From Armatimonadota bacterium (GTDB lineage: Bacteria > Sysuimicrobiota > Sysuimicrobiia > Sysuimicrobiales > Kaftiobacteriaceae), in NCBI GenBank assembly GCA_031081675.1, contig JAVHLZ010000018.1, positions 1 to 44,209 of the forward strand: 44,209 nucleotides of DNA, in the 5' to 3' direction. Positions 18,338 to 26,002 of the stretch are shown here, piece by piece; positions within the stretch are counted from its first letter, which is position 1; every line of letters begins with the position of its first letter. A program made the translations under genes and the position numbers. The notes beneath the pieces are model-generated. The model was not told the origin of the DNA. It made no database searches and saw only the letters and a program-made list of their open reading frames with translations.

Positions 18338-18346
18338 TGGTATAAT
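18338..18346 (+). promoter_or_regulatory. Extended -10 promoter of ssrA
   Basis: The sequence TGGTATAAT is a perfect extended -10 box (TG-n-TATAAT). It ends 12 bases before the mature tmRNA 5' end at 18359, so the precursor would have a short 5' tail removed by RNase P. No convincing -35 is seen at 17 bases, as is common for extended -10 promoters. Confidence 0.75.
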
Positions 18347-18358
18347 GAAGGCGGATTC

Positions 18359-18711
18359 GGGGGCGAACGGTCTCGACTGGGATGGCAGAAGCGAGGCTGC
18401 GCGCCGAGGGGGTCCGGGACCTCGTTAATCAGCCGGACGGCGCATACACGCCAACACACAGTACGCCTACGCTGCCTAAGTAGCAGCGTACGTCCACCCG
18501 GGAGGGCCGGCGGCCCGGGAAGGGCGCCACCAGCCGGCTACTGCGGCGACCGGCCGGCCCGGCCGCCGTCGCGGGAACCCCAGCAGGGCTGGCGTCCGGG
18601 CATCCCGCCCGGGGGAGGGCCTGGACGCGAGATGCCAAACCCGGGATACGCGCGTAGACGCCTGGCCCTCGCTCTCCCAGGACGCGGGTTCGATTCCCGC
18701 CGCCTCCACCA
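18359..18711 (+). ncRNA. ssrA: Transfer-messenger RNA (tmRNA)
   Basis: tmRNA rescues stalled ribosomes and tags the unfinished protein. The two ends form the tRNA-like part: GGGGGCG (18359-18365) pairs with CGCCTCC (18701-18707, one G-U), followed by A and an encoded CCA (18709-18711). The T-arm GCGGG-TTCGATT-CCCGC is intact, and the 5' part has the conserved GAACGGTCTCGAC-like D-loop region. The tag frame begins at the resume codon GCC (18450) and ends at TAA (18477-18479), encoding ANTQYAYAA. Tags of bacteria commonly end in AA after a hydrophobic residue. The length of 353 bases is normal. smpB lies upstream on the same strand. Confidence 0.95.
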
Positions 18712-19759: not shown

Positions 19760-20602
19760 TCAGAGCACCGGAAGGGTGCGCCGCGGTGGTCCTGCGGGAA
19801 ACGCCTCCTCGATGCGCGCGGTCTCCTCGGCGGTCAGGACGAGGTCGCCTGCGCCCGCGTTTTCCCGCACGTGCTCCACGGACGAGGATTTGGGGATGGT
19901 GAACAGGGAGGGCCGCCGCACCAGGAACGCCAGGGCCACCTGGCGGGAGGTCGCGCCCCGCGCCCGCGCGATCTCCTCCAGGACCCGCCCGCCGCGGGAG
20001 CGGGGGGAGGGGAAGGCGCCGGAGCCGAACGGACTGTAGCCCACCACGGCGATGCCGCGGGCCTCGCACCAGGGCAGCACGGCGTGCTCGATGGCGCGCT
20101 CGCCCAGGTGGTAGAGAACCTGGTTGCACGCCACGCGCCCCTCGCCGGCGACCGCCACCGCGCCTTCCAGATCGGGCACGTCGAAGTTGCTGACCCCGTA
20201 AAAACGGATCTTGCCCTCCCGCACCAGACGCTCGAACGCCCGCACCGTCTCCTCCAGGGGATGGGTCGAGGGCCAGTGCAGCAGGTACAGGTCCAGCCAC
20301 TCGGTACGCAGGCGCCGCAGACTGCCCTCACAGGCGCGCAGGACGCCCGGGAAGGTCGCGTGCTCGGGGAGGACCTTGGACGCCAGGAACACCTCGTGGC
20401 GGCGGCCGGCAATGGCCTCCCCCACGATCTCCTCCACCCGGCCGGCTCCGTACATCTCCGCGGTGTCGATGTGGGTCATGCCGGCGTCCAGCCCGGCCCG
20501 CAGGGCAGCCACCGCCCGACGGCCGTCCCGCTCCATCTGCCAGGTGCCCTGGCCGATGACCGGCACGGGCACTCCCGTCCACCCGAGCGGGCGCCGGATC
20601 AT
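19760..20602 (-). CDS. Aldo/keto reductase
   Basis: This is an NADPH-dependent oxidoreductase of the AKR superfamily, 280 residues, a TIM barrel that reduces aldehydes or ketones. The catalytic tetrad is visible: Asp in HIDTAEMYG, Tyr in the same motif, Lys in FLASK, His in LLHWPS. The NADPH-binding segments FYGVSNFD and TIPKSSS are present. The start is the ATG at 20602, which forms an ATGA overlap with the stop of the upstream GntR gene. The two are therefore a two-gene operon, and the reductase is probably controlled by that regulator. The substrate is not known. Confidence 0.93.
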   Translation of the reverse strand: MIRRPLGWTGVPVPVIGQGTWQMERDGRRAVAALRAGLDAGMTHIDTAEMYGAGRVEEIVGEAIAGRRHEVFLASKVLPEHATFPGVLRACEGSLRRLRTEWLDLYLLHWPSTHPLEETVRAFERLVREGKIRFYGVSNFDVPDLEGAVAVAGEGRVACNQVLYHLGERAIEHAVLPWCEARGIAVVGYSPFGSGAFPSPRSRGGRVLEEIARARGATSRQVALAFLVRRPSLFTIPKSSSVEHVRENAGAGDLVLTAEETARIEEAFPAGPPRRTLPVL

Positions 20603-21288
20603 GCCTGGTCCCACTGAGCGAGGACGTCCGCGCGAACGCTGGCCAGGTGCTCGCGCATCGCGGCCTCCGCCCTGGCCGGATCGCGGGCGCGGATGGCGGC
20701 CGTCACCTTGGCCATTTCGCGAAACGACCGTGTGGCCCGCTCCCGGGTGCGGAGGACGCGCATGCGTGCGGGTTGCAGGTGGGCCCGCACCAGGTCCACC
20801 ACCGCCGCCAGGCAGGCGTTGCCGGCAGCAGCGGTGATCGCCCGGTGGAGCTCCTCGTGGGCGGCCAGCACCCCGTCCAGATCCCGCCGCTGCAGGGCGG
20901 CGCCGTGGGCTCTGATGAGGTCGTTCAGCCGGGCCACGGCGGGGGCCGCCGCCCGTTCGGCCGCCCGCCGGGCCGCCAGGCCTTCCAGCACCTCCTGCAG
21001 GTCGAACAGGTCCTCCAGGTCGGAGCGGGTCCGGACGGGGACCTCGAACCCCCGACGTCCGGCGGGGCGCAGAAACCCTTCCAGCTCGAGCCGCCGCAGC
21101 GCCTCCCTCACCGGCGTCCGGCTTAGCCGCCACGCGGCGGCCAGCTCGACCTCGTGCAGCCGCGTCCCCGGAGGAATCCTCGCGTCGGCAAGGTGCTGGC
21201 GCAGGTGCCGGTAGATCACCTGGCTGACCGGCTCCCGCGGGGGAAGCGGAGCGGCCAGGATGGGAATGGCGGGAGCACGCTCGACCAT
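20599..21288 (-). CDS. GntR family regulator (FCD/FadR subfamily)
   Basis: This is a transcription factor of 229 residues. The N-terminal winged helix-turn-helix is seen as VSQVIYRHLRQHL, then RTPVREALRRLELEGFL. The all-helical FCD ligand domain follows, with DLFDLQEVLEGLAARRAAERA. The metal/ligand-site histidines are in AAHEELHRAI and MREHL. These residues usually bind a metal that holds a carboxylate effector. The ATG at 21288 has GGAGGG seven bases upstream, and longer in-frame starts lie in an AT-richer control region. It precedes and overlaps an aldo/keto reductase gene. Confidence 0.93.
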   Translation of the reverse strand: MVERAPAIPILAAPLPPREPVSQVIYRHLRQHLADARIPPGTRLHEVELAAAWRLSRTPVREALRRLELEGFLRPAGRRGFEVPVRTRSDLEDLFDLQEVLEGLAARRAAERAAAPAVARLNDLIRAHGAALQRRDLDGVLAAHEELHRAITAAAGNACLAAVVDLVRAHLQPARMRVLRTRERATRSFREMAKVTAAIRARDPARAEAAMREHLASVRADVLAQWDQA

Positions 21289-21300
21289 CGAAAGCCCTCC

Positions 21301-21327
21301 GTATTCGGAGTACTGAGTACTGTATTC
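21301..21327. promoter_or_regulatory. Operator-like repeat cluster upstream of the gntR gene
   Basis: GTATTC (21301-21306) and GTATTC (21322-21327) flank two copies of the palindrome AGTACT (21309-21314 and 21316-21321). This AT-richer patch stands out from its GC-rich surroundings and lies 13-39 bases upstream of the gntR ATG. It is a plausible self-binding site. On the minus strand TTGAAT just upstream could be a -35 element, but no good -10 is seen. Confidence 0.4.
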
Positions 21328-21458
21328 AAAACTCCGCATTCTGAATCCTCCTGGGATCAATAGACCAGTGAACATAGGTTCGCCTGCGGCTATTGCCCGC
21401 GGCCGATGTCGCGGGTACGCTGGTGTCGGAAGTGCAGACCTGCGACGGGAGGTGTGCG

Positions 21459-21830
21459 GTGGCATACATCATCGCTGAACCGTGCATTGGGACCAAGGAC
21501 CGCTCCTGCGTGGAGGTCTGCCCGGTCGACTGCATCTACGAGTACGTGGACGAGGTGGGCAGCTTCGTCGTTCCCGACCCGTCCACCGGTCCCGGGCCGG
21601 ACAAGCAGGTGATCCCCAAGGGTGAAGCGGTGCACGTTCCCGCCGAGGGCGTGCCCAAGGAGAAGCTACTGGCCCAGCTGTTCATTCACCCGGAAGAGTG
21701 CATCGACTGCGGCGCCTGCGAGTCGGTGTGCCCGGTGACCGCCATCTTCCCCGAAGCCAGCGTGCCCGACCAGTGGAGGGACTACATCACGCTCCAGTAC
21801 CAGGTCTTCGGGCTGCAGCCCAAGTCCTGA
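21459..21830 (+). CDS. 7Fe ferredoxin with 40-residue insertion
   Basis: This is a soluble electron carrier of 123 residues. It has MAYIIAEPCIGTKDRSCVEVCPVDCIYE at the N-terminus (written here as the C-x7-C-x3-C-x3-C motif) and CIDCGACESVCP near residue 81. By analogy to Azotobacter FdI and Thermus ferredoxin, Cys9, Cys17 and Cys91 would hold a [3Fe-4S] cluster. Cys21, Cys81, Cys84 and Cys87 would hold a [4Fe-4S] cluster, leaving Cys25 free. The segment between the motifs (about residues 31-74, Pro/Gly/Lys rich) is about 40 residues longer than in Thermus. The GTG at 21459 follows GGGAGGTG. The gene stands alone, so its partner cannot be inferred. Confidence 0.9.
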   Translation: MAYIIAEPCIGTKDRSCVEVCPVDCIYEYVDEVGSFVVPDPSTGPGPDKQVIPKGEAVHVPAEGVPKEKLLAQLFIHPEECIDCGACESVCPVTAIFPEASVPDQWRDYITLQYQVFGLQPKS

Positions 21831-21855
21831 CCGGCGGGGCCGCGGACCTTGCACC

Positions 21856-22239
21856 CTAGCGGAGCCGGATGGTGGTGATGCAGGTGGGGTCGCGGGGGAA
21901 CGAGGAGAAGGTTCCGGTGCCCCGCCGTCCCTGGTAGGCGAAGGTGATCACGTAGCGCTTGTGGGGCGGGACCCACAGCTCCACGAACCCGTCGTCCCCG
22001 GCCCGCACCACGCCGCTGCGGCTCACCGTCCCGTCGGTGGACCGCAGCCAGTAGCGGAACGTCGCACCCGCCAGCTCGCCCTGGCAGGACCCCTTGACGT
22101 GGTACGTGCACGGATGGGTGGTGGTCAGATACGGCGCAAGGGCCACGTAGAAGTCACCGGCGGGTGCCGGGACGGCCGCCGCGGCCAGACCCAGCACTGC
22201 CGCCAGCACCACAGGCAGGATGCGCGGCATCGCGGTCAT
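21856..22239 (-). CDS. cueP: CueP-like secreted copper-binding protein
   Basis: This secreted protein of 127 residues has a clear signal peptide (MTAMPRILPVVLAAVLGLAAAAVPAPA). The mature part follows the CueP pattern: HPC-TYH-VKGSC-QGELAG, GFVELWVPP, YQGRRGTGTFSS and PTCITTIRL. Three cysteines, Cys44, Cys52 and Cys120, match the three copper-site cysteines of Salmonella CueP, including the eight-residue spacing of the first pair. CueP binds copper in the periplasm of Salmonella and helps supply or store it. The ATG at 22239 has GAGGAGGGTG directly upstream. It is divergently placed from the glycosyltransferase gene, with no other copper gene nearby. Confidence 0.85.
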   Translation of the reverse strand: MTAMPRILPVVLAAVLGLAAAAVPAPAGDFYVALAPYLTTTHPCTYHVKGSCQGELAGATFRYWLRSTDGTVSRSGVVRAGDDGFVELWVPPHKRYVITFAYQGRRGTGTFSSFPRDPTCITTIRLR

Positions 22240-22349
22240 CACCCTCCTCGGGCGTATCCTAAGGGCGAGGGGACGCGAGCGCCATCGGGTAGCCGACCGA
22301 TTCGCCCGCGGCCCCGGGCGCGGACCGGGTTTCCCTGACACGGGCCGGC

Positions 22350-22358
22350 TGGTATAAT
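22350..22358 (+). promoter_or_regulatory. Extended -10 promoter of the glycan module
   Basis: TGGTATAAT is a perfect extended -10 box, identical to the one before ssrA. A weak -35 (TTTCCC, 22330-22335) stands 17 bases upstream. Transcription would start near 22365, giving a leader of about 120 bases before the glycosyltransferase start at 22486. Confidence 0.7.
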
Positions 22359-22376
22359 AGCGGCGAAGCCGCGCAT

Positions 22377-22462
22377 CACAATCGCATACCGACCCCGCCG
22401 GACCAGCCGCGTCCGGCGCGTTTCCAGCTGTCGTTTCGATTGTGGGAGGCCCCTTGCGGGGC
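22377..22462 (+). ncRNA. Structured leader RNA of unknown class
   Basis: Three helices are visible in the leader. CACAATCG (22377-22384) pairs with CGATTGTG (22437-22444), a perfect 8-pair outer helix. Inside, CGCCGGAC (22396-22403) pairs with GTCCGGCG (22411-22418), a perfect 8-pair hairpin with a seven-base loop. After the outer helix, GCCCC (22449-22453) pairs with GGGGC (22458-22462) around TTGC, just before the ribosome binding site. The arrangement resembles a cis-regulatory RNA, but it matches no riboswitch class I know. Confidence 0.55.
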
Positions 22463-22485
22463 GTCGGAAGCGGCAGGTGAGATCC

Positions 22486-23685
22486 ATGGTGGACCGGATC
22501 CTGACCGACTCCGATGACCGTCCCTCCCGCCGGGTCCGGGTGGCATTCGTCAGCACCTACCCGCCGCGGGAGTGCGGGATCGCCACGTTCACCCGGGACC
22601 TGATCGAGGCGCTGGCCGGCCACAATCCTCCGGTGGAGGCCGTGGTGGCCGCAGTGGATGAGGACGCTGTGGCGCGCCCTTACCCGCCGCGCGTCCGCTG
22701 GCGGATTCTCCAGCACGACGTCGACACCTACGTCCGGACGGCCCGGGAGCTCTCGGCGTCGGGAGTCGATGTGGTGAACCTGCAGCACGAATTCGGGATC
22801 TTCGGCGGGGAGTGGGGCGCCTACGTGCTGCGGCTGGGGGAACGACCGACCGTCCCCCTGGTGACCACCCTGCACACCGTCCTCCCCGATCCGCCTCCGG
22901 TGGCTGAGGCCATCATCCGGGCGCTGTGCGAGCACAGCGCCGCCGTGGTCGTGATGACCCGGTCGGCGGTGGACATCCTGAGGCGGGAGTACGGGGTGGA
23001 CGACCGGCGCGTGCGCGTCATCCCCCACGGCGTGCCGCCGGTGAGCCGGCAGGATCCGGCGCGCGTCAAGGCCGACCTGGGCCTGTCCGGCCGGCGCGTG
23101 CTGTCCACCTTCGGTCTGCTGAATCCCGGCAAGGGCATCGAGGACGTGATCGACGCCCTGGTCCACGTGGTGCCCCGCCATCCCGACGTGCTGTACCTGG
23201 TGCTGGGGGAAACCCACCCCATGGTCCGGCGGCAGCAGGGCGAGAGCTACCGGGAGTGGCTGCAGGAGCGGGTGCGGCAGCGGGGCCTGGAGGAGCACGT
23301 GCGGTTCGAGAACCGCTACCTGCCCGACCGGGAGCTGATCCGCTACCTGCTGGCCACCGACGTGTACATCACCCCCTATCACAACCCGCGCCAGATCGTC
23401 AGCGGCACGCTGTCCTACGCCCTGGGATGCGGGCGGGCCATCATCTCCACCCCCTACCTGTACGCCCGGGATGTGCTGGCCGAGGGGCGGGGCCTGCTGG
23501 TGCCATTCCGCGCTCCCCGGGAGATGGCGGCGGCCATCACGCGCCTGCTGGAGGATCCTCACCTGCGGGAACGGCTCCAGCGCGCCGCCTACAGCCTGGG
23601 CCGGCAGATGGCGTGGCCCCGGGTGGCGGCGGCCTATGGCGAGCTGTTTGCCGAGGTGGCCGCCGCCCGCGCCGTGGCCTTCTGA
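22486..23685 (+). CDS. GT4 family glycosyltransferase
   Basis: This is a GT-B-fold retaining glycosyltransferase of 399 residues, cytoplasmic. The N-terminal domain starts with VAFVSTYPPRECGIATFTRDL, an acceptor-side motif. The C-terminal domain has STFGLLNPGKGIEDVIDAL and VRFENRYLPDRELIRYLLATDVYITPY. The usual EPFG-type motif is replaced by HNPRQIVSGTLSYALGCGRAIIST, which marks a subgroup often linked to GH130 enzymes. The ATG at 22486 is chosen. The upstream in-frame GTG at 22477 overlaps the purine-rich ribosome binding site and is less likely. The next gene follows after seven bases. It probably uses a mannosyl or related sugar nucleotide (inference from neighbours). Confidence 0.9.
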   Translation: MVDRILTDSDDRPSRRVRVAFVSTYPPRECGIATFTRDLIEALAGHNPPVEAVVAAVDEDAVARPYPPRVRWRILQHDVDTYVRTARELSASGVDVVNLQHEFGIFGGEWGAYVLRLGERPTVPLVTTLHTVLPDPPPVAEAIIRALCEHSAAVVVMTRSAVDILRREYGVDDRRVRVIPHGVPPVSRQDPARVKADLGLSGRRVLSTFGLLNPGKGIEDVIDALVHVVPRHPDVLYLVLGETHPMVRRQQGESYREWLQERVRQRGLEEHVRFENRYLPDRELIRYLLATDVYITPYHNPRQIVSGTLSYALGCGRAIISTPYLYARDVLAEGRGLLVPFRAPREMAAAITRLLEDPHLRERLQRAAYSLGRQMAWPRVAAAYGELFAEVAAARAVAF

Positions 23686-23692
23686 GACCGCC

Positions 23693-24793
23693 ATGCTCCC
23701 TCCGCTGTCCGTGGCCCACCTGCGCCGGCTCACCGATGAGACGGGGGTCCTGCAGTTTGCCCGCTTCGGGGTGCAGGACCCCGCCAGCGGTTACGCCACC
23801 GACGACAACGCCCGCGCCCTGGTGGTGGCCGCGCGCCTGCCTCCCCTGCGGTGGCGGGAGACCCTGGCCCGGACCACCCTGGGCTTCCTGCTGTACGCCC
23901 AGCGGCAGGACGGCACGTTCGTCCACCTGATCCGGTACGACCGGCGGCCCGACGGTCGCCCGGGCTCCGAGGACTGCCTGGGCCGGTGCGCGTGGGCCTG
24001 CGGTGAGGTGGTGGCGTCCTCCCTTCCCGATTCCCTGCGCCGCACGGCGGAGTTCATCCTGCACCGCGTGTGGCCGCACCTGGACGGTCTGCGGTCCTGC
24101 CGCGGCCAAGCCAATGCCATCCTGGGGTTGACCGCCTACTGTCGGGCCACGGGACGGCCCGAGGCGAAGGCCCTGGCCACCGTGCTGGGCGACCGGTTGC
24201 TCCGGGCCCTGGACGACCACAGCGGCGGGGAGTGGGTGTGGTTTGAGGACATCCTGACCTACGAGCCCGGCCGCCTGCCCGCGGCCCTGTGGGATGTCTA
24301 CCGCCTGACGGGCCTGGAGCGGTTCCGGCGGGGCGCGGAGGAGACCACAGGGTTCCTGGAGCGGACCCTTCACCTCCCGGTCGGGGGAGGGGAGCGGGTG
24401 CTGGTGCCGGTGGGCAACCGCGGGTGGTATCCCCGCGGAGGCCCCCGGGCGTGGTACGATCAGCAGCCGGTGGATGCGGGGAGCCTGGTGGAACTGTACG
24501 TGGTGGCGGCGGAGACCACCGGTGAGACCCGCTATCGCCGACTGGCGGAGGAGGCGTTTGGCTGGTTTGCCGGTCGGAACACCGCCGGCGCGGCCGTCTA
24601 CGACCCCCGCACGGGAGCCTGCCACGACGGCCTGCATCCCGGCGGGGTCAACCTCAACTGCGGGGCCGAGGCCACCATCACCTTCCTGCTGGCCCGCCTG
24701 AGCCTGGGCCGGCTGCTGGGCGTGGACACGGTGCCGCCTCGCCCCCGCCGGCGGGCGGGCTTCCGGCTGCGGCCTCAGCCTGTCCTGCGGTGA
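23693..24793 (+). CDS. (Alpha/alpha)6-barrel-type carbohydrate protein linked to GT4/GH130
   Basis: This protein of 366 residues resembles the helical-barrel proteins found between GT4 and GH130 genes in other bacteria. Features are GYATDDNARALV near the start, helical repeats with DCLGRCAWACGEV, an aromatic GEWVWFEDILTYEPGRLPAAL segment, and WYDQQPVDAGSLVEL. Acidic residues in the DDNAR and WFEDILTYE motifs suggest a glycosidase-like pocket. A precise activity is not known, and the family is often annotated only as glycosyltransferase-associated. The ATG at 23693 is seven bases after the GT4 stop. The end overlaps by 19 bases with the convergent GH130 gene. Confidence 0.82.
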   Translation: MLPPLSVAHLRRLTDETGVLQFARFGVQDPASGYATDDNARALVVAARLPPLRWRETLARTTLGFLLYAQRQDGTFVHLIRYDRRPDGRPGSEDCLGRCAWACGEVVASSLPDSLRRTAEFILHRVWPHLDGLRSCRGQANAILGLTAYCRATGRPEAKALATVLGDRLLRALDDHSGGEWVWFEDILTYEPGRLPAALWDVYRLTGLERFRRGAEETTGFLERTLHLPVGGGERVLVPVGNRGWYPRGGPRAWYDQQPVDAGSLVELYVVAAETTGETRYRRLAEEAFGWFAGRNTAGAAVYDPRTGACHDGLHPGGVNLNCGAEATITFLLARLSLGRLLGVDTVPPRPRRRAGFRLRPQPVLR

Positions 24794-25815
24794 CGGGCCA
24801 CCTCGTAGGCCTCGCGGCGCGCGGCCCGGATCAGGCGCGCCGGCACCGAGGGGGCTGTCCGGGCGGCGTCGGCGGCCCACTGCAGCAGAGCCTGGCGGGA
24901 GACGCTGGCCACGCCGATGACGCTGTCGGCGGCCCCGTAGTACACGAAGTAGCGGTCCCCGAGCTCCACCGCCCCGCAGGTGAACACCACGTTGGGCACC
25001 AGGCCCTCCCGCTCGTAGGGCTCCTCCGGTTCGAGGATCGGGTTGGGAGCTCGCGCCAGGACGTGGCGGGGGTGCTCCAGATCCAGCAGGGCCACCCCCA
25101 GACGGTAGACGCGGCTGTCGTCCACCCCGTGGTAGAACAGAAGCCAGCCATAGGGAGTCCACAGAGGCGGTGCCCCCGGGCCGATGCGGTTGCTGTCCCA
25201 GCTTCCCGGCCGGACGGTGAGGATGGGCCCCAGGTCCCGCCAGCGGCGCAGATCCAGGGACGTCCCCAGGTGGATGTTGGGGAAGATCCGGTGGAGCAGG
25301 TAGTACCGCCCGCGGATGCGGGCCGGGAACAGGGCTCCGTTCTTGTCGTCCCACTGGCGGAAGGCCAGCCCCACGCGGCGGAAAAGCACGAAGTCGCGGG
25401 TGGTGGCGATGGCGATCCGCGTCCGCCAGGGGACGCCGTTGTCGTCGAAGGGGGAGGGCCCCCGCCGGCGGACCGGCCGCAGGGCCGGATACAGGGAGGC
25501 CGCCGTGTAGCAGATGAAGTACCGCCCGTCGAGAAACGTCACCCGGGGGTCCTCCACACCCAGCCTCTCCCACGGGTTGTTCAGGGCGGGCTCGAAGACC
25601 GGACGGGGGCTGCGCTCGACGACCCGCACCCCGTCCTCCAGCACCGCCAGGCCGAAGCGGGAGACCCAGTCGGCCCCCTGGGCCCGGTACAGCAGCACCA
25701 CCCGGTTCTGGTAGAGGGTGGCTCCACAGTTGAAGACCCAACGGTTTTCCCACCACCGGCTGGTGGGCGCCAGGATGGGGTTGCCGTCAAAGCGCTGCAG
25801 GCGCGGCGCGTCCAT
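24775..25815 (-). CDS. GH130 family beta-mannosyl phosphorylase/hydrolase
   Basis: This is a five-bladed beta-propeller of the GH130 family, 346 residues. GH130 enzymes phosphorolyse or hydrolyse beta-mannosidic bonds. Seen are RFDGNPILAPT and the GCAT-LYQN-VVLLYR strand. The acid/phosphate-pocket blocks follow: GVEDPRVTFLDGRYFICYTA, DDKNGALFPARIRGRYYLLHR, SNRIGPGAPPLWT and GLVPNVVFTCG. Family members begin at the RFDGNPIL segment, so the ATG at 25815 is chosen. The ATG at 25872 would add 19 residues that look unrelated, and neither start has a strong ribosome binding site. It is convergent with the helical-barrel gene and probably works on the same glycan. Confidence 0.9.
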   Translation of the reverse strand: MDAPRLQRFDGNPILAPTSRWWENRWVFNCGATLYQNRVVLLYRAQGADWVSRFGLAVLEDGVRVVERSPRPVFEPALNNPWERLGVEDPRVTFLDGRYFICYTAASLYPALRPVRRRGPSPFDDNGVPWRTRIAIATTRDFVLFRRVGLAFRQWDDKNGALFPARIRGRYYLLHRIFPNIHLGTSLDLRRWRDLGPILTVRPGSWDSNRIGPGAPPLWTPYGWLLFYHGVDDSRVYRLGVALLDLEHPRHVLARAPNPILEPEEPYEREGLVPNVVFTCGAVELGDRYFVYYGAADSVIGVASVSRQALLQWAADAARTAPSVPARLIRAARREAYEVARHRRTG

Positions 25816-26002
25816 GGGATGCCGGGATCGGGTGATTCGTCCGCCGGCGGCCGTTTCCTCCGCAGCAGGCATGCCCGGGGTCCATGCGGATCAGACCGGG
25901 GGCGGCGCGGCGAAGGCCTCAACGCGACGGCATGCCCGGCGCGTGACGGTCAGGCGACGGGCGGGCTGCCCGGCGGCCGCCGGGGAAGGCGCGCGGCCCC
26001 CC

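Follow-up and report, generated by a model that had tools for sequence, protein, structure and literature searches.

Does the DNA between a glycosyltransferase gene and its promoter in the window (the whole 44,209-nucleotide stretch of an Armatimonadota contig analysed here) encode a leader RNA that acts in cis? A preliminary description had placed a perfect extended -10 box before this leader, and it is indeed present as TGGTATAAT at 22350-22358 on the plus strand, one of 13 TGSTATAAT sequences in the genome. Judging from this position, transcription would start near 22365, giving the GT4 mRNA a 5' untranslated leader at 22365-22485 (plus strand; 127 nt separate the -10 element from the ATG). 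The GT4 gene (22486-23685, plus strand; PF00534, 4.6e-18; PF13439, 8.3e-16) was listed as an open reading frame from GTG 22477, and the sequence points to AGGTGA at 22475-22480 as its probable Shine-Dalgarno, 5 nt before ATG 22486.

The second gene of the presumed transcript (23693-24793, plus strand) shows a weak GH127-like match that lies below the cut-off (PF07944, E 0.021). The leader had been described as preceding a GT4/GH130 module; it does precede GT4, but the GH130 mannoside-phosphorylase-like gene (24775-25872; PF04041, 1.1e-59) lies convergently on the minus strand, outside the transcript, so that only GT4 and 23693-24793 can share it. On the other side, a CueP-like gene (21856-22239, minus strand) is divergent from GT4, and a 15-nt inverted repeat links its start (22219-22233) with 22363-22377 at 93% complementarity. 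A tmRNA with its own TGGTATAAT promoter was also seen at 18338-18711, some 4 kb before the promoter of GT4.

The 8-pair outer helix around an 8-pair hairpin reported earlier can be read directly in the plus strand, to which all the following elements belong. CACAATCG (22377-22384) pairs with CGATTGTG (22437-22444) across a 52-nt interior, and this holds the inner hairpin CGCCGGAC-CAGCCGC-GTCCGGCG (arms at 22396-22403 and 22411-22418, 7-nt loop). The third hairpin, GCCCC-TTGC-GGGGC, is likewise present (22449-22453/22458-22462, loop TTGC), and its first base is also the last G of the purine stretch GGGAGG (22444-22449). This hairpin is not directly before the binding site, as had been stated, for AGGTGA begins 12 nt later. 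In the isolated leader, a closing helix GCCGC/GCGGC (22368-22372/22470-22474) is predicted just before the likely binding site, and an alternative helix CCGAC/GTCGG (22389-22393/22463-22467), exclusive with the outer 8-pair helix, is 1.5 kcal/mol worse and accounts for ~12% of the leader-alone ensemble.

Pair probabilities in the isolated leader are 0.86-0.87 for the outer helix, 0.75-0.96 for the inner one and 0.99-1.0 for the third hairpin. The closing helix reaches 0.93 for 22365-22485, 0.66 for 22365-22500 and 0.00-0.07 in three longer stretches. When coding sequence is added, the third hairpin varies between 0.12 and 0.89, while the ensemble retains both the outer helix (0.62-0.94) and the inner one (0.68-0.93); the outer helix is absent from the single best fold of 22365-22545. 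No terminator-like site, as an attenuator would carry, was found in the GT4 leader, and the third hairpin is not an intrinsic terminator because no T-run follows it.

The expectation of such helices by chance was evaluated with dinucleotide shuffles and with other parts of the contig. At least one 8-pair helix occurred in 417 of 3000 shuffles, the nested 8/8 arrangement in 1 of 3000 and the full three-helix pattern also in 1 of 3000. When a 121-nt frame was slid along the same contig, 21 of 2205 positions had the nested arrangement, at ten places including the GT4 leader, and 4 had the full pattern, at three places including the GT4 leader. The three-helix pattern is thus uncommon, yet not exceptional. 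The folding energy of the leader is ordinary (z -0.87, with 40 of 200 shuffles as good; z -0.89 in a second run), and the stability above composition that is usual, though not required, for structured leaders is not observed here. Among the 11 leaders folded against shuffles, which do not include the short ones of G002 and G005, z was below -2 only for L009 and L014; with 2 of 11, energy excess was dropped as general evidence for these leaders.

Searches of 43 genomes of the order with models R1 and R2, together with pairwise tests, found no alignable homologue of the window leader. Under stricter filters, model R1, made from the window leader, recovered itself at 2.7e-43, followed by a match at 0.008 that is not a GT4 leader. 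Model R2, made from the leader of genus g16, gave no match at 22365-22485 up to E 10 with the filters off and none in the window's genome (G000) up to E 1 with stricter filters. Similarity to the leaders of ten relatives was not significant after correction, the best scores being reached by 18 and 20 of 1000 shuffles. With the binding site retained, shuffles reached the window-L020 score in 2 of 200 cases and the window-L009 score in 5 of 200; with it removed, they did so in 361 (L020), 20 (L009) and 18 (L030) of 1000, and homology to these three leaders is not supported. A likeness to the 3' end of L030 noticed by eye, GTCGGAAG, is not the best local alignment, and the search for a second copy of the leader in its own genome returned a single copy. 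As the preliminary description had surmised in recognising no known riboswitch class, the Rfam 15 covariance models gave no match for 22200-22560 up to E 5. The GT4 loci of the ten relatives had none up to E 2, and we found no literature joining GH130 with a riboswitch.

We then consider the same position in related genomes. GT4 was present at E <= 1e-60 in 16 of the 43 genomes, the window's included, and none of the others belongs to the window's genus. GT4 start codons were chosen by binding-site strength and homology. The comparison was confined to the order, GT4 relatives from outside it being left aside (L015, L016, L019, L021-L023, L025-L027, L029 and most of L031-L110), and the leader comparisons omit G032 (L018), whose contig starts 12 nt ahead of the match, G012 (L008), where the upstream sequence seems by eye to be coding, and G038 (L024), in which no promoter was recognised.

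Of the 16 genomes, 8 (G000, G002, G011, G022, G023, G025, G028 and G031) have a perfect TGSTATAAT before GT4, and in seven of these it lies 89-127 nt ahead of the start codon. From the end of the -10 element, the distance is 127 nt in the window, 102 nt in G011, 104 nt in G023, 35 nt in G002 and, within genus g16, 95 (G022), 94 (G025), 94 (G028) and 89 nt (G031). Imperfect -10 elements were found 36 (G005), 94 (G007), 145 (G016), 148 (G019) and 161 nt (G026) before the start. Moreover, TATAATAGCGGCG has just two occurrences in the 43 genomes, the GT4 promoters of G000 and G023. The promoter before GT4 is real and conserved, and the sequence comparisons show that a long GT4 leader is kept behind this kept promoter in several genera. 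It should be noted that two of the three same-family orthologues (G002 and G005) have leaders of ~35 nt, which suggests that the leader element is dispensable for GT4 in sister lineages. As a separate observation, TGGTATAATAGCGGCGAA at G023:C1:361725-361740 is identical to the window's GT4 promoter; G023 belongs to another family, and the two GT4 proteins are 47% identical.

What else lies behind such promoters? The 2.29 Mb genome of the window holds 13 TGSTATAAT sites, against 0 in the reversed control; with gene names and starts as we read them, they precede 2 tRNA genes, the tmRNA, 2 T-box-like leaders, 7 protein genes and GT4. The leaders of the 7 plain protein genes measure about 10-72 nt, and in this genome a length comparable to that of the GT4 leader is found behind such promoters only in the two weakly matching T-box-like leaders (L113 and L119; RF00230, E 0.034 and 0.004, scoring 26.5 and 30 bits against a gathering score of 93). 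Nine genomes were counted, with 7-17 sites each and reversed controls of 0 in seven, 1 in G002 and 3 in G005. We read 30 of the 87 sites of eight relatives. Of these, 4 precede tRNAs and 3 precede T-boxes, of which one passes the gathering score; a c-di-AMP riboswitch and the GT4 gene of G023 account for one site each, and 2 further sites stand before unclassified RNAs of a single kind. The other 19 were read as protein genes, whose leaders are mostly short, with some starts uncertain; gene identities in the relatives come from our reading of the translations. Given what lies downstream of the surveyed sites, long leaders at extended -10 promoters tend to be structured RNAs. The c-di-AMP riboswitch is L153 of G005. 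A long-hairpin RNA, GGAACAGGG...CCCTGTTCC, is common to L133 (G022) and L154 (G011), where it stands behind TGCTATAAT; it is 6S RNA-like by eye, has no Rfam match up to E 0.5 and, in L154, the one that was folded, has a z of -3.0.

The four orthologous leaders of genus g16 could be aligned, and RNAalifold predicts for them an outer helix reaching to the binding site, a hairpin with the invariant GGACAATC and a second hairpin. Both sides have changed in 5 of 18 pairs and 94.4% of cells are paired, compared with 0-1 double changes and at most 49.3% of cells in slid-partner controls. Column shuffles with refolding surpassed the observed covariation term 6 and 2 times in 500; the total alignment energy is not unusual, since 129 and 134 of 500 shuffles did as well, and single g16 leaders are no more stable than shuffled sequences (z +0.24 to +1.03). 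The five double changes, as read from the alignment, all occur in one divergent species, G031, and they therefore count as one lineage's set of events. Furthermore, in each of the six g16 species pairs the leader shows higher identity than the gene's own fourfold sites (e.g., 77/87 vs 50/89 for G022/G025, and 58/83 vs 39/83 for G025/G031).

A similar comparison of the g12 pair showed that 8 of 8 varying pairs stay paired, in a structure that was itself predicted from this pair. Its energy was attained by 20 and 17 of 500 shuffles; the one double change lies in the binding-site helix, and the covariation is not significant (exceeded in 67 of 500 shuffles), and the letter-shuffle control was uninformative (255/500). 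The g12 pair is suggestive only. Covariation supports a selected RNA fold in one related genus, g16, only.

Several explanations can be set against a functional leader RNA. Nearly as likely as our best reading, and likewise short of an even chance, is that the leader is an ordinary GC-rich one, in which helices arise by chance at 68% GC and selection acts on the promoter only. The z of -0.87, the recurrence of nested 8/8 helices elsewhere on the contig, at nine places, the lack of a detected leader homologue, the ~35 nt that suffice in two of three same-family orthologues and the alteration of the fold by added coding sequence all agree with it, whereas the length of the window leader, nearly twice or more that of the seven plain mRNA leaders of its own genome, and the constrained and covarying orthologous leaders of g16 do not. 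We regard as quite improbable a metabolite riboswitch that hides the binding site to control translation. Such a switch would fit the two exclusive folds 1.5 kcal/mol apart, the position of the double change in the g12 pair, and a binding site whose pairing in G019 exceeds that obtained with shuffled leaders (1/200), a tendency that is weaker in G023 (17/200) and G016 (27/200). In the window, however, the accessibility of the binding site is as low or lower in 148 of 200 shuffled leaders and in 212 of 300 synonymous-codon controls, and no Rfam class matches; with a predicted static accessibility that is ordinary against both controls, a binding-site-hiding switch in the window is not supported.

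It is very unlikely that CACAATCG...CGATTGTG serves as a DNA operator or as part of the promoter of the divergent CueP-like gene, with its pairing in RNA being incidental. Besides the divergent arrangement, a minus-strand promoter-like sequence, TTGTGA-16-TATTAT (22381-22354), shares bases with both the 5' arm and the plus-strand -10, and 1 such match was found in 20000-26000 where 0.1 was expected. Against this, the arms are 52 nt apart with an unrelated hairpin between them, and the exact arm pair (spacing 40-65) occurs at one place in the genome, which gives no sign of a regulon. Least probable of all is the coupling of GT4 translation to an upstream short frame from TTG 22454 to TGA 22480. 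The frame and the GGGAGG before it were read by eye, its stop overlaps the GT4 binding site, and in the G023 leader, too, a TTG...TGA frame that stops at the binding site is visible by eye; but the window's frame has only eight codons, a 4-nt spacing and a rare start codon, and none was seen by eye in the g16 leaders.

Our preferred reading, held tentatively and somewhat below even chances, is that the GT4 leader is an unclassified, fast-evolving, lineage-specific structured cis-acting 5' leader RNA. A conserved strong extended -10 promoter would give the GT4 mRNA a 5' untranslated leader of ~120 nt, and this structured leader would act in cis once transcription has begun, via translation or mRNA stability; these are favoured over termination because no terminator was found. 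The kept promoter, the long leaders, and the constraint and compensation in g16 indirectly favour a function for the leader, as compared sequences go. We infer that the three helices of the window are the working structure, and also their role. The cis-acting RNA put forward in the preliminary description therefore gains from the conserved promoter, the long leader, and the compensatory changes and constraint in another genus's orthologous leaders; it loses from the ordinary energy, the ~35-nt leaders in two of three same-family orthologues and a binding site hidden no more than by chance.

Compared with known systems, the closest counterpart is the g16 GT4 leader, which shares with the window the orthologous gene, a perfect extended -10 (in g16, 89-95 nt before the start) and an outer helix around hairpins, but has no detectable sequence similarity, differs in helix lengths and order, and yields a model (R2) that misses the window. 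The T-box leaders (RF00230) L113 and L119, weak matches themselves, are also long and follow a promoter of this kind in the window's genome, whereas in the GT4 leader neither a T-box match nor a terminator was found. Translational riboswitches as a class are multi-helix leaders ending near the binding site; unlike them, the window leader has no assigned aptamer class, ligand or binding-site switch.

A broader proposal, which we consider doubtful, is that the GT4 mRNAs of this order carry a new fast-evolving regulatory leader whose position behind the kept promoter stays the same while sequence and fold are rewritten in each genus, and that the window contains the version of one lineage, whose two exclusive folds could switch. 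If functional, the leader would be an undescribed regulatory RNA on the GT4 gene in an order represented by 43 genomes, and the g16 leader provides a definite structure, with invariant loop residues, that can be put to the test. Moreover, extended -10 promoters are rare in these GC-rich genomes, and listing them may be an efficient way of finding structured RNAs.
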